From Thiomargarita sp. (lineage in GTDB: Bacteria; Pseudomonadota; Gammaproteobacteria; Beggiatoales; Beggiatoaceae), in assembly GCA_020726335.1 (NCBI GenBank), contig DYSU01000026.1:1-34312 (forward strand): 34,312 nt of DNA, in the 5' to 3' direction. Of this stretch, positions 9,228 through 34,178 are shown one piece after another (positions within the stretch are counted from its first letter, which is position 1; each line of letters starts with the position of its first letter). Below the pieces are notes generated by a model that was not told the origin of the DNA, ran no database searches, and saw only the letters and a list, made by a program, of their open reading frames with translations. Made by a program: the position numbers and the translations under genes.

Positions 9228-9881
9228 TTATTTTATTTGTTTGGGCGCAAGACGAACGTGTTCGTTGACTAAAATCAGGCTGACGATTTCTAAAGGGGGC
9301 AATTCTTCACCGCTTAAATGTAGTCGCACCGCTTTAGGTAAGCTCAAGCGTTCGCGGCCACTCCATTTTTGCAACCATTTGTTTTGATTGGCGGTTTCGG
9401 TGTTTTGGTTTTGAAGATTGTCATAAGCCAAATAGTCCAAATGCAGTTGATAGCCTGCAAACAACAGTATAGGTTGTTGTTCTTCAAGACGTTTTGTTGG
9501 ATTATCGGCATAGGCGGGAACGGTGCGCAATTCCACACCTTTGTCTTCACCTGCTTTGATTTGCCATGCGCTTAAACCTGCTTGGCGTGCAGGCGAGGCG
9601 GTGGAAACCCATGTTAAAGCTTGGTCATCGCCTTCAAAGTGAATATACGGCGTGTTTTTCTCGGTTTCGACATAATAATGCGGGTAAGCGGCCTGCAAAC
9701 TGGTGTCGATTTGCAACAAACCCAAGGTTAAATCCAATTGGTCATCAAGGCGTTGGCTGTTGCGTTGCCAGTCTTTCATCACCACATACATGCCGCCCGC
9801 CAACAAGCTCAACACCATGGCGGCCAAACTCATTGCCAGCAATAATTCCAATAAGGTGAAGCCCTGAACGCGGCGCATCAC
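9228..9881 (-). CDS. gspJ: Type II secretion minor pseudopilin, GspJ-like
   Basis: A 217-residue prepilin: a 7-residue leader MMRRVQG, then FTLLELLLAMSLAAMVLSLLAGGMYV with Glu at +5, so it should be processed by the prepilin peptidase. Size, the QRLDDQLDLTLGLLQIDTSLQ region and a beta-rich C-terminus with VRLHLSGEELPPLEIVSLILV match GspJ, which forms the pseudopilus tip with GspI, GspK and GspH. No gspI, gspK or gspH gene adjoins it. Its start overlaps the end of hda by 4 bases, so it is translated as the last gene of the hemX-hemY-hda run. A type IV pilus minor pilin (PilW-like) is the main alternative. Confidence 0.7.
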   Translation of the reverse strand: MMRRVQGFTLLELLLAMSLAAMVLSLLAGGMYVVMKDWQRNSQRLDDQLDLTLGLLQIDTSLQAAYPHYYVETEKNTPYIHFEGDDQALTWVSTASPARQAGLSAWQIKAGEDKGVELRTVPAYADNPTKRLEEQQPILLFAGYQLHLDYLAYDNLQNQNTETANQNKWLQKWSGRERLSLPKAVRLHLSGEELPPLEIVSLILVNEHVRLAPKQIK

Positions 9882-18738: not shown

Positions 18739-20190
18739 TCAACCCACCCGCGTGACGCGCAGAATTTCTTCAGGCGTGGTGATGCCTGCGTAGAGTTTTT
18801 CTAGCGCGTCTTGCCGCAAAGTACGCAAGCCTTCTTGTTGGGCGGCGAGGCGAATGGCGTTGGCATCTGCACCTGTGCTGACCACATGGCGGATGTGGTC
18901 AGACATCAACAACAGCTCATAAATGCCCACGCGGCCACGGTAGCCCGTCTGGCCACAGCGTTCACAGCCTGTGCCGCGCCGCAGGGTTTGACAGTCATCT
19001 GTTTGAATTTGCAATAATTGAGCTTCCTCAACCGTCAGCGAATGCGGTTGACTGCAATCAGGGCAAATGCGCCGCACCAAACGTTGCGCCATCACCGCCA
19101 ACAAACTGGAGCTGATGAGATAAGTGTCCACGCCCATGTCTTGCAAGCGGGTGATCGCGCCTGCCGCATCGTTGGTGTGCAAGGTTGAAAACACCAAATG
19201 CCCTGTCAACGCTGATTCAATCGCAATTTGTGCGGTTTCGCCGTCTCGAATTTCGCCCACCATGATGATGTCGGGGTCTTGACGCACGATGGAACGCAAA
19301 CCTGCCGCAAAAGTCAGGCCGATTTTGGCGTTCATGTGAATTTGGGTGATGCCTTGCAATTGGTATTCAACAGGGTCTTCAACGGTGATGATTTTTTGCA
19401 CGCCGGTGTTAATTTTTTCCAGCGTGCCATATAAACTGGTGGTTTTGCCTGAACCTGTGGGGCCTGTGACCAAAATCATGCCAAACGGTTGGGTGATGGC
19501 GTGTTGATAGCTGTCCAATACGTCTTTGGGCATCCCCAGTTGTTCCAAACTGACATTGACATCACTGCGGTCTAAAATCCGCAACACAATGGATTCGCCG
19601 TGAATGCCCGGCAAGGTGGAAACGCGCATGTCCAGCAAACGTTCGCCCACTTGGTATTGAATACGGCCATCTTGCGGCAAGCGTTTTTCGCCGATGTCGA
19701 GTTTGGCCATCAATTTGACCCGCGATGACACGGCGGCAATCACGTTGGCGGGCAATTGTTTCAAAGCCACCATCACGCCATCGACGCGACAGCGCACACC
19801 CAGATAATGTTCTTCGGGTTCAAAATGGATGTCGCTGGCGTTGAGGTCTAAAGCGCGTTCCATCAAGTGGTTGACCATGCGAATGATGGGGGCTTCAGAA
19901 GCCAAATCGGCCAAATATTCATCGTCGTCCAAACGGCTTTCATCGGCGTTGGTTTGATCCAATTGGGGTGCTAATTTGGCGCGCCAATATTTGAGCAGGC
20001 GATCAACTTCATCTTCGGCTGCGGTTTTGAAGACACAGGCTGGGCCTAAAATAAAGCGGATTCTGGCGCGTTGCTCTGCGTCTACGCCTTGTTTGCATAA
20101 CAACAGCGGTTCATCGGGGTAATTTTTGTTGGGTGCGATGTGCTGATTGGCCAGCAATTGGGTGAACGTGGGCAAATTAAGCGTTTTCAT
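18739..20190 (-). CDS. gspE: Type II secretion ATPase GspE
   Basis: GspE is the cytosolic hexameric ATPase that drives pseudopilus assembly through GspL and GspF. I use ATG 20190 (MKTLNLPTF, 483 residues), which overlaps the upstream gene by 14 bases and has GAG 8 bases before it; a start at 20247 would add 19 atypical residues. Seen: an N-terminal N1E-like part, APIIRMVNHLMERALDLNASDIHFEP, GEKRLPQDGRI, Walker A GPTGSGKT (243-250), Asp box TVEDPVEYQ, Walker B IIMVGEIRDGETAQIA, His box TGHLVFSTLHTNDA, and a four-cysteine zinc motif CPDC...CERC (roughly 378-415). The zinc motif separates it from PilT. PilB is the alternative, but the adjacent GspM-like gene favours GspE. Confidence 0.88.
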   Translation of the reverse strand: MKTLNLPTFTQLLANQHIAPNKNYPDEPLLLCKQGVDAEQRARIRFILGPACVFKTAAEDEVDRLLKYWRAKLAPQLDQTNADESRLDDDEYLADLASEAPIIRMVNHLMERALDLNASDIHFEPEEHYLGVRCRVDGVMVALKQLPANVIAAVSSRVKLMAKLDIGEKRLPQDGRIQYQVGERLLDMRVSTLPGIHGESIVLRILDRSDVNVSLEQLGMPKDVLDSYQHAITQPFGMILVTGPTGSGKTTSLYGTLEKINTGVQKIITVEDPVEYQLQGITQIHMNAKIGLTFAAGLRSIVRQDPDIIMVGEIRDGETAQIAIESALTGHLVFSTLHTNDAAGAITRLQDMGVDTYLISSSLLAVMAQRLVRRICPDCSQPHSLTVEEAQLLQIQTDDCQTLRRGTGCERCGQTGYRGRVGIYELLLMSDHIRHVVSTGADANAIRLAAQQEGLRTLRQDALEKLYAGITTPEEILRVTRVG

Positions 20191-20743
20191 TATTTTGCTC
20201 GGCAACTTTGACGCTGTGATTAAATCCTGTGACCGTGATATTGGCAAACAATTGTTTTTGTTGGAAAATTCTGATTTCCAAACTGCCGATGTGCAAGGTG
20301 GTTTTATCGTTTTCTAAGTCGGTAATAAAATCCATGATGTCTTGCGAATTGCCTTCAAATTCCATGGATTGGCTGACAAACAACCAATCTTTGGTTTCGG
20401 CAAATTCGGGTAAATCCAACGTGCGCACCCGTAAATTGTGTTTGCTGGCCACTTGTTTTAATAAATCTTGCAGTTTGCCCGCCACCACATCGCGGGTTGT
20501 GCCTTGCAAAGCCGTATCGTTGATTTGTTGCCATTCTTGTAAAGCTTTTTTGTAGTCGCTGTCCCATTGGTCGCGGTTGACCCACAAATCTTTATAGCGG
20601 TTGATATGGGCTTTAAGGCTGTACACTTTGTCATATTCTTGTTCAAACCATGAATAAATCGCGGGAATGATTTTGAAAGGCAAAAAATACAGGCCAAACA
20701 ACGACACCATGACGGTCAGTAATTTTTTTTCTTTGCGGGTCAT
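20177..20743 (-). CDS. GspM-like (T2SSM_b / PilO-fold) secretion protein
   Basis: A 188-residue bitopic protein: short basic cytosolic start MTRKEKKLLTVM, one transmembrane helix (about 9-30), a coiled-coil stretch (about 32-75) and a ferredoxin-like periplasmic domain. SQSMEFEGNSQDIMDFITDLENDKTTLHIGSLEIR is the alternating pattern found in the GspM/PilO fold, where it precedes a final strand (ANITVTGF). GspM anchors GspL and GspE at the inner membrane. The gene directly precedes gspE and overlaps it by 14 bases, which supports this. PilO is the main alternative, but no pilM, pilN or pilQ is present. Confidence 0.6.
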   Translation of the reverse strand: MTRKEKKLLTVMVSLFGLYFLPFKIIPAIYSWFEQEYDKVYSLKAHINRYKDLWVNRDQWDSDYKKALQEWQQINDTALQGTTRDVVAGKLQDLLKQVASKHNLRVRTLDLPEFAETKDWLFVSQSMEFEGNSQDIMDFITDLENDKTTLHIGSLEIRIFQQKQLFANITVTGFNHSVKVAEQNNENA

Positions 20744-20747
20744 TGGG

Positions 20748-21749
20748 TTAAAATCTCGGGTTTAGCGGCAACAAACCCACTATCAAACAAGTTGAGGATG
20801 TATGGCGCGCATAAAACGGTAGATATTGAAATTGTTGTTTAAATTGCTGTTGCCATGCGGGCCATGTTGTCCTGCCATTGGGTGCGTATAATAACCGATT
20901 CAACTGGATAAACAAACCCGTCACCGCTTGACCTTCCAATTGGGTGTAGTGTTGTAAAAAACAGGAACCGATTTGGGTGGGTGACGCAACCACGCGGGCG
21001 TGCAAATGCCGATGGGCAAATTGTTGCAAAATTGACAACGCTGACTGCGCTTGGGTTGAACGCTCAATTTGTTGCAACAGGTGAAAACTGTGTACAGACA
21101 ACGGAATAAAACGCTGCCAATACAATATGTTACTGTAGTATTGAACTTTGGGTTTGAATTTAAACACCCAGTGCTGACGGCAACGTTGGTACAAACTGAA
21201 GCGCATCAAGCCATGATGCAGTTGTGATTTAACTTGAGTCAAACCAAAATACAGCGTCTGCCACAAAACAAGGCTGTGTTGATAGCACTTGCGGGCATAC
21301 AAAGGGATTTTAATCTGTGCCAACCCCCAGCCCAACAACACACAAGCGATGGCCGCCAACAGCACCGCGTGGTTGCTCCATGAAGCGATCATGTTTTTTT
21401 CCACCACAGGCCTGCGTTGATGGGGCAAGGGCATTTGTCCTTGGCTGTTTAACACGCTCAATTGTTTGGCCGCCAGTGCTGTGCTGGACAATTGGTTTTT
21501 CCAAATATCCCACCAATACAATTTAATGGCAGGCAAGGTTAAAACCCCTGCCCGTTTTGGCACCAAAGTGAATTCTTGGGTTTTTTTGGCGTTGACTGTG
21601 CGTTTATTGCCACTGCTGTCAATTTGATTGTCATACACAGGTTTTTCGGGATAAACATTAAAGTCAGATTGTTGATTGAACAGTGAAATTAAATCAGGCA
21701 ACCGCTGGGCTTCAATGCCAATGGCATACAATGTCACATAAAAACTCAC
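20748..21749 (-). pseudogene. C-terminal half of BatD (probable deletion derivative)
   Basis: A 333-codon frame from a GTG at 21749, representing only the later part of a BatD (aerotolerance-related, membrane-anchored) protein, which is normally about 550-600 residues. Seen: TLYAIGIEAQRLPDL (the BatD segment A-G-x-x-A-x-Q-LPDL), then VYPEKPVYDNQ, EFTLVPKRAGVLTLPAIKLYWWDIWKNQ, the last strand pair before the membrane, and a transmembrane helix at about 129-150 followed by a long cytosolic tail. Signal peptide and the first beta domains are missing. The region upstream holds an out-of-frame 40-codon ORF with a signal peptide. The bat partner genes (batA, batB, moxR) are absent. It may still be expressed by coupling to the small ORF. 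Confidence 0.65.
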
Positions 21750-21868
21750 AGCGTGGCTTCAGCGGATAAATCATCGGCCACAGGCGGGGCATCGGCTTGC
21801 ACCGTCCACCACGGCAGGCAAGACACCCATAACAGCCCTCGCCAAAAAGTGTCAAGCCCCATTGCCAT
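21746..21868 (-). CDS. 40-codon ORF with signal peptide, overlapping the BatD remnant
   Basis: Minus-strand frame from ATG 21868 (second ATG at 21862) to TGA at 21748-21746. It encodes a hydrophobic tryptophan-rich leader (FWRGLLWVSCLPWWTVQA, with cleavage plausible after QA) and a short acidic tail DAPPVADDLSAEATL. The stop overlaps the GTG start of the BatD remnant (GTGA), and the frame is one off from it. It starts 3 bases after the previous gene. Best reading: the original N-terminus of batD, separated from the rest by a deletion that caused a frameshift. It was found by translating the region by hand. Confidence 0.5.
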   Translation of the reverse strand: MAMGLDTFWRGLLWVSCLPWWTVQADAPPVADDLSAEATL

Positions 21869-21871
21869 GGC

Positions 21872-23541
<1,670 letters not shown>

Positions 23542-33730: not shown

Positions 33731-34147
33731 TTACCAATTGATGACATCGGCATCATCGTCTGCGCCGCCTTCTTTGCCGTCGGCACCATAGGAAAATAAA
33801 TCATAGTCATTGCTGTGTTTGCCCGGTTGGCGGTATTGATAGTCATCGCCCCAAGGGTCTTTGGGTACACCTTTTTTAATATAAGGCCCTGCCCACAATT
33901 TGCTGTTGCTTTCATTGTTGATCAAGCCATCCAAACTGCGCGGGTATTTGCCGACATCCAAGCGATACGCATCCAGCGATGTTTCGATATTCTTGATTTG
34001 GGTTTTGGCGGTATCGACTTTAGCCCCGCCGACTTTATTAATTAAAGTCGGGCCAACAATCCCCGCCAACATGGCCAAAATGGCCATTACAATCAACAAT
34101 TCAATTAAAGTAAAGCCTTGTTGTGATTTGGATTTTTTTAATATCAT
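33731..34147 (-). CDS. gspG: Type II secretion major pseudopilin GspG
   Basis: GspG is the main subunit of the type II secretion pseudopilus, processed by the prepilin peptidase. I use the ATG at 34147 because AAGGA is 7 bases upstream; the ATG at 34153 would leave only one base. From there, 138 residues: leader MILKKSKSQQG, then FTLIELLIVMAILAMLAGIVGP with Glu at +5, then DTAKTQIKNIETSLDAYRLDVGKYP, DPWGDDYQYRQPGKHSNDYDLFSYGADGKEGG, the conserved calcium-binding region near the C-terminus. It is separated from the other gsp genes by at least 13 kb. Confidence 0.93.
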   Translation of the reverse strand: MILKKSKSQQGFTLIELLIVMAILAMLAGIVGPTLINKVGGAKVDTAKTQIKNIETSLDAYRLDVGKYPRSLDGLINNESNSKLWAGPYIKKGVPKDPWGDDYQYRQPGKHSNDYDLFSYGADGKEGGADDDADVINW

Positions 34148-34178
34148 GTGCATTTCCTTTATTCATATGAGGCTTGCC

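Follow-up and report, generated by a model that had tools for sequence, protein, structure and literature searches.

According to an excerpt of PMC5700661, several bacteria conserve the domains MoxR, DUF58, VWA, TPR and Bat as a group. In Leptospira biflexa the deletion of all bat ORFs left growth rate, morphology and oxidative-stress tolerance unchanged, as stated in the abstract of PMC3557215. Large-scale pseudogene formation is reported, again in an excerpt (PMC3637634), for a fish-adapted streptococcus. The locus considered here is like the short subtype of BatD (PF13584; Bacteroides aerotolerance cluster), found in the comparison genomes G004, G013, G015 and G030 of the same family and other genera, in its last Ig-like domain, its transmembrane (TM) helix, its long C-terminal region ending in LNPx and a 5' signal peptide; it differs from this subtype by the absence of about 145-153 residues and by its two ends being out of frame. 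It does not stand beside batA or batBC, as is also the case in three of the four relatives. The locus may be likened as well to the pseudogenes of shrinking genomes, such as those of the fish lineage of Streptococcus agalactiae, whose reduced genome lost genes through decay according to the excerpt of PMC3637634; the genome under study measures 2.1 Mb, and 36 of the 41 other family genomes searched exceed 2.3 Mb. Unlike the pseudogenes described in that excerpt, three parts of one system were hit here at three loci, with both ends of the gene kept each time and with the reading frame broken in one case and preserved in the other two.

Our reading, to which a probability of roughly three in four may be given, is that batD is a pseudogene here or well on the way to one, as one member of a dispersed MoxR-DUF58-Bat system whose parts are decaying together.

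Structure of the batD locus

The window, i.e., the whole stretch of 34,312 nucleotides that was analysed, is contig C68 of a draft genome of Thiomargarita sp. (G000; 88 contigs, 96.8% complete), and it contains the tightly spaced gene run purB, 96-aa ORF, leader ORF, batD', gspM-like gene and gspE-like gene, with the following features (primes denote the shortened genes).

21746 to 21868, minus strand: leader ORF of 40 aa, with a signal-peptide-like stretch and the putative first residues (..AEA..) of the first Ig-like domain of BatD; candidate batD 5' remnant
20748 to 21749, minus strand: batD', the batD 3' remnant, 333 codons with a GTG start; last Ig-like domain (beginning with strand B), TM helix, C-terminus ..LNPRF
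21746 to 21761, minus strand: interval of the frame change and presumed deletion joint, from the leader-frame TGA (21746-21748) to the TGA of the 333-codon frame (21759-21761), from three-frame translation
21309 to 21374, minus strand: predicted TM helix, residues about 126-147 of the 333-aa frame, with basic residues C-terminal to it
21872 to 22162, minus strand: ORF of 96 aa upstream of the leader, overlapping the purB stop; hydrophobic stretches, no confident family (best Pfam match DUF485, E 0.13, below the cut-off)
20177 to 20743, minus strand: gspM-like gene (T2SSM_b) 4 nt downstream of batD'; Pfam PF10741, 25.6 bits against a cut-off of 21.7

The two ORFs and their GTGA stop/start overlap were found exactly where the sequence-only reading had placed them, the leader at 21868-21746 and the 333-codon frame at 21749-20748 of the minus strand. 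The longer frame matched the Pfam BatD family PF13584 over residues 25-91 with 24.1 bits, which is exactly the curated cut-off (E 5.9e-5), and was aligned over nearly its full length with two relatives (residues 15-315 with G015, 7-331 with G004). In the alignment of the frames from 19 relatives' loci, two of which reach the edge of the locus (L017 among them, clearly cut), it opens with the second strand of the last Ig-like domain and then covers everything, TM helix included, up to the C-terminus, in agreement with the earlier proposal that only the later part of BatD is encoded by it. Judged from the same alignment, a single Ig-like domain without its first strand precedes the helix, against two or more in the aligned intact relatives. 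The helix, with a Kyte-Doolittle peak of 2.25 (19 residues) at residue 128, and the C-terminal region, which aligns to its end, are thus both present; the other marks of BatD, a signal peptide in frame with the domains and the neighbourhood of MoxR, DUF58, VWA and TPR genes, are missing, since the signal-like leader lies in another frame and is ended by TGA, and the partner genes are on contigs C83, C60, C81 and C51 and not on C68. The expectation that the C-terminal piece lacks the signal sequence and retains the membrane helix is therefore borne out, the helix being a hydropathy prediction. An in-frame stop stands three codons ahead of the GTG. The frame is fully open over its 333 codons, and its codon use (mean log-odds 0.259) is within the range of 21 window genes (0.228-0.472), at its low end; these properties are as expected for a recent deletion as well as for continued constraint. 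Two of its six 55-codon segments are near zero (0.109 and 0.068).

The leader ends in ..LSAEATL after the signal-like stretch, the residues EA being numbers 37-38. In the four intact relatives the motif W-x-E-A is invariant at the start of the first domain, and its EA occupies residues 33-34 in G015, 35-36 in G013 and 37-38 in G004, the last exactly as in the leader; in G030 (L062), whose first possible start is further upstream, it occupies residues 59-60. The hydrophobic peak of the leader is weak (0.96 over 15 residues) and its codon score of 0.026 is lower than that of all 21 window genes. The leader, accordingly, resembles the N-terminus of BatD itself at a few residues.

Comparison with intact relatives

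The 333-aa protein was matched in 33 of the 57 genomes searched, its own included, with the match extending into the C-terminal region in four others, which are the short-subtype genomes G004, G013, G015 and G030. All four contain BatD frames without internal stops, of 525, 553, 521 and 575 aa, respectively, so that an intact homologue is available in each of the subtype relatives, while at the present locus a segment is gone between two recognisable ends, as would be asked of a pseudogene. The length of BatD varies within the family, with open frames of 426 aa in G003 and 446 aa in G027. Compared with the relatives, about 145-153 residues are absent between the leader and the 333-codon frame. 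The crossing from one frame to the other is confined to the 16 nt at 21746-21761, and one out-of-frame deletion can therefore explain both the missing part and the change of frame. Alignment with intact batD genes and mapping of the junction, as had been advised, thus lend support to the simplest explanation offered from the sequence, a large internal deletion with a frameshift. A normal split with the same junction in relatives, which would have spoken against it, was not seen, the four genes of the subtype being uninterrupted over 521-575 aa.

One BatD in the genome scored over the family cut-off; the other match, on contig C43, remained below it with 20.5 bits, within a frame of 2435 aa. 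When the full-length BatD of G013 (L061) was used as a query on the genome under study, the window locus was the sole match at E<=10, and a displaced N-terminal domain was not detected in this genome at E<=10 with a profile of four rows (A1), which had no positive control. The description of batD as rearranged is accordingly unsupported. The search of a second contig collection with the 333-aa protein returned no relative, and a PurB search of this collection gave no near relative, none of the best 80 loci exceeding 73% identity, although entries from this genome or its nearest kin may be omitted there.

The partner genes

Two genes of the MoxR-DUF58-BatA-BatBC-BatD set, which is spread over the five contigs C83, C60, C81, C51 and C68, were found to be shortened besides batD.

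G000, contig C83, 15576 to 15995 (7577 to 7996 of locus L053), minus strand: moxR', 139 aa, separated from the preceding ychF by 2 nt and from the following argB by 20 nt
G000, contig C60, 23610 to 24344 (5611 to 6345 of locus L171), plus strand: DUF58', 244 aa, with an in-frame internal deletion

In moxR' the first 120 residues are fused in frame to the last 19, and 178-183 residues (~179) are missing in comparison with seven relatives, to which it is 67-74% identical; its closest homologues are full-length (345 aa in G004, 329 in G015, 322 in G030 and 323 in G013). Residue 120 presumably lies just after the Walker B region. The sequence GAAGC was found on both flanks of the deleted part in all four relatives examined, which would fit a deletion caused by misaligned copies of a short direct repeat. 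A similar placement of the batD joint was attempted, the relatives proving too divergent for it. DUF58' matched the Pfam profile PF01882 in two pieces, at positions 2-42 and 102-215, and lacks 63-70 residues in comparison with seven relatives, the frames in G004, G013, G015 and G030 having 302-326 aa. As a control, 30 other proteins of the genome, mostly housekeeping, were inspected by eye (25 from the window and five beside moxR', batBC and DUF58'), and none of them matched its Pfam profile in two pieces with the middle missing; several covered the profile incompletely at one end (pilT/pilU, for example, reached position 282-284 of 370). A further protein, 9231-9881, had a 27-residue motif match only and was uninformative.

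The remaining members of the set are less affected. The gene batA on C81 is intact as far as the contig end, and batBC stands alone on C51 with both ends kept and a linker of 314 aa against 635 aa in G004, the one relative compared; this linker is of low complexity, and its shortness cannot therefore be called damage. A second, full moxR, 49% identical to moxR', is present on C41, and another DUF58 protein (423 aa) on C84, so that these families were not wholly lost. The closest homologues of moxR and DUF58 share a contig in G015 and do not in G004, G013 and G030, which are drafts; according to the ORF translations, batA, batBC and batD stand together in G004, while batD is without adjacent batA or batBC in G013, G015 and G030.

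Probable decay of the system and alternative explanations

The decay of the system may be pictured as follows. One internal deletion, about 450 nt long and not divisible by three, would have taken BatD's first Ig-like domain together with the initial strand of the next, so that the start and the signal peptide are now out of frame with an intact 3' half. batD would be one of three casualties within the set, moxR and DUF58 having apparently lost their core parts in frame. The remnants are closely flanked by other, intact genes, as moxR' is by ychF and argB, which suggests that deletions within a gene are the kind that is tolerated. On this basis batD' is probably non-functional, and we infer a loss of function of the whole system. 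Against the decay reading stand the open 333-codon frame with its codon use inside the window range, the second moxR and the other DUF58 protein that remain, batBC with both its ends, the few residues on which the likeness of the leader to BatD is based, the low codon score of the leader, and the fact that two of the three deletions are in frame, so that shortened proteins could be made.

The first alternative is an artefact of assembly, by which a misjoined contig or a dropped segment would conceal a batD that is intact in the living cell. The genome lies in 88 contigs and batA stops at a contig end, and to this extent such an error might be imagined; but the sequences flanking the joint correspond to the two ends of one gene, and like lesions, each joining the gene's own ends, were found in moxR and DUF58 on other contigs, whereas none of the 30 control proteins was split in this way and random misassembly would not favour one pathway. 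The argument from the end of the batA contig is made less likely by batBC standing alone on C51 and by the solitary batD of three relatives. This explanation is, on the whole, unlikely. A homopolymer sequencing error was also considered and rejected, there being no run of more than two in the 16-nt interval, and a small indel could not explain about 150 missing residues.

The second alternative is a maintained split gene, or a miniature BatD, in which the leader is translated, the ribosome re-initiates at the GTG or slips by -1, and the shortened BatD works. Its attraction lies in the GTGA overlap, the open 333-codon frame with intact TM helix and C-terminus, and the variable length of BatD in the family, as illustrated by the frames of 426 aa (G003) and 446 aa (G027). 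To evaluate the overlap, 20 window genes were subjected in a simulation to 22,892 random out-of-frame deletions. In 6.1% of these the downstream frame had its first start in an NTGA overlap, and in 34.5% at least one start codon shared 4 nt or 1 nt with the stop of the leader; the first start fell within 10 nt of the leader's stop in 14.5%, and at or before this stop in 90.8%. The GTGA overlap is, hence, not clearly above chance, and, as a near-chance outcome, it gives little weight to the translation of the C-terminal half; its neatness is no sign of selection. The sequence-only reading had argued from the overlap kept by both pieces that this half could still be translated: the overlap stands, and little weight can be placed on it, as its type arose in 6.1% of the simulated deletions. 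Of the two marks by which a maintained split might be recognised, a slippery heptamer was absent, by eye, from the 16-nt crossing interval, and a split conserved in relatives was found in none of the four of the subtype; no ribosome-binding site was evident, by eye, before the GTG. A protein re-initiated at the GTG would be devoid of a signal peptide and would carry, ahead of the TM helix, about 125 residues expected in the periplasm, and the partner MoxR lacks everything between residue 120 and the last 19. A working split gene is, consequently, quite improbable.

To be set slightly below it, as a long shot, is the possibility that all three stumps (batD, moxR and DUF58) were kept by selection as translated genes, either because deletions are favoured that retain both ends of a gene and let ribosomes pass on through tight operons, by frame-keeping in moxR and DUF58 and by stop/restart in batD, or because the stumps form a minimal Bat complex working without the MoxR motor. 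That the leader comes from an unrelated secreted protein, behind which the 3' half of batD was moved by rearrangement, is scarcely credible, for although its likeness to BatD is based on few residues and batD of G004 follows batA-batBC and not purB with the 96-aa ORF, a solitary batD is common (G013, G015 and G030, from ORF translations) and the EA of the leader takes the same place, residues 37-38, as in G004.

Annotation and downstream genes

Under the preferred reading of joint decay, the consequence is mainly one of annotation, in that the 333-codon frame should not be read as a working BatD, and the pattern looks like the ordinary decay of a little-understood protein system and not like a new kind of gene. 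A lineage from which BatD is disappearing along with one MoxR and one DUF58 protein may also serve, to a modest extent, as a natural test of the interdependence of the parts. With respect to the neighbouring genes, the restart at the GTG and the frame-keeping deletions may spare the downstream genes from polarity, and batD' may serve as a path for ribosomes to the gspM-like gene 4 nt downstream; among the titles and abstract openings seen, none addressed pseudogenes retained for translational coupling. The gspM-, gspE-, gspF- and gspG-like genes of type II secretion (20177-20743, 18739-20247, 1379-2593 and 33731-34153, respectively) are scattered over the window and do not form one operon.
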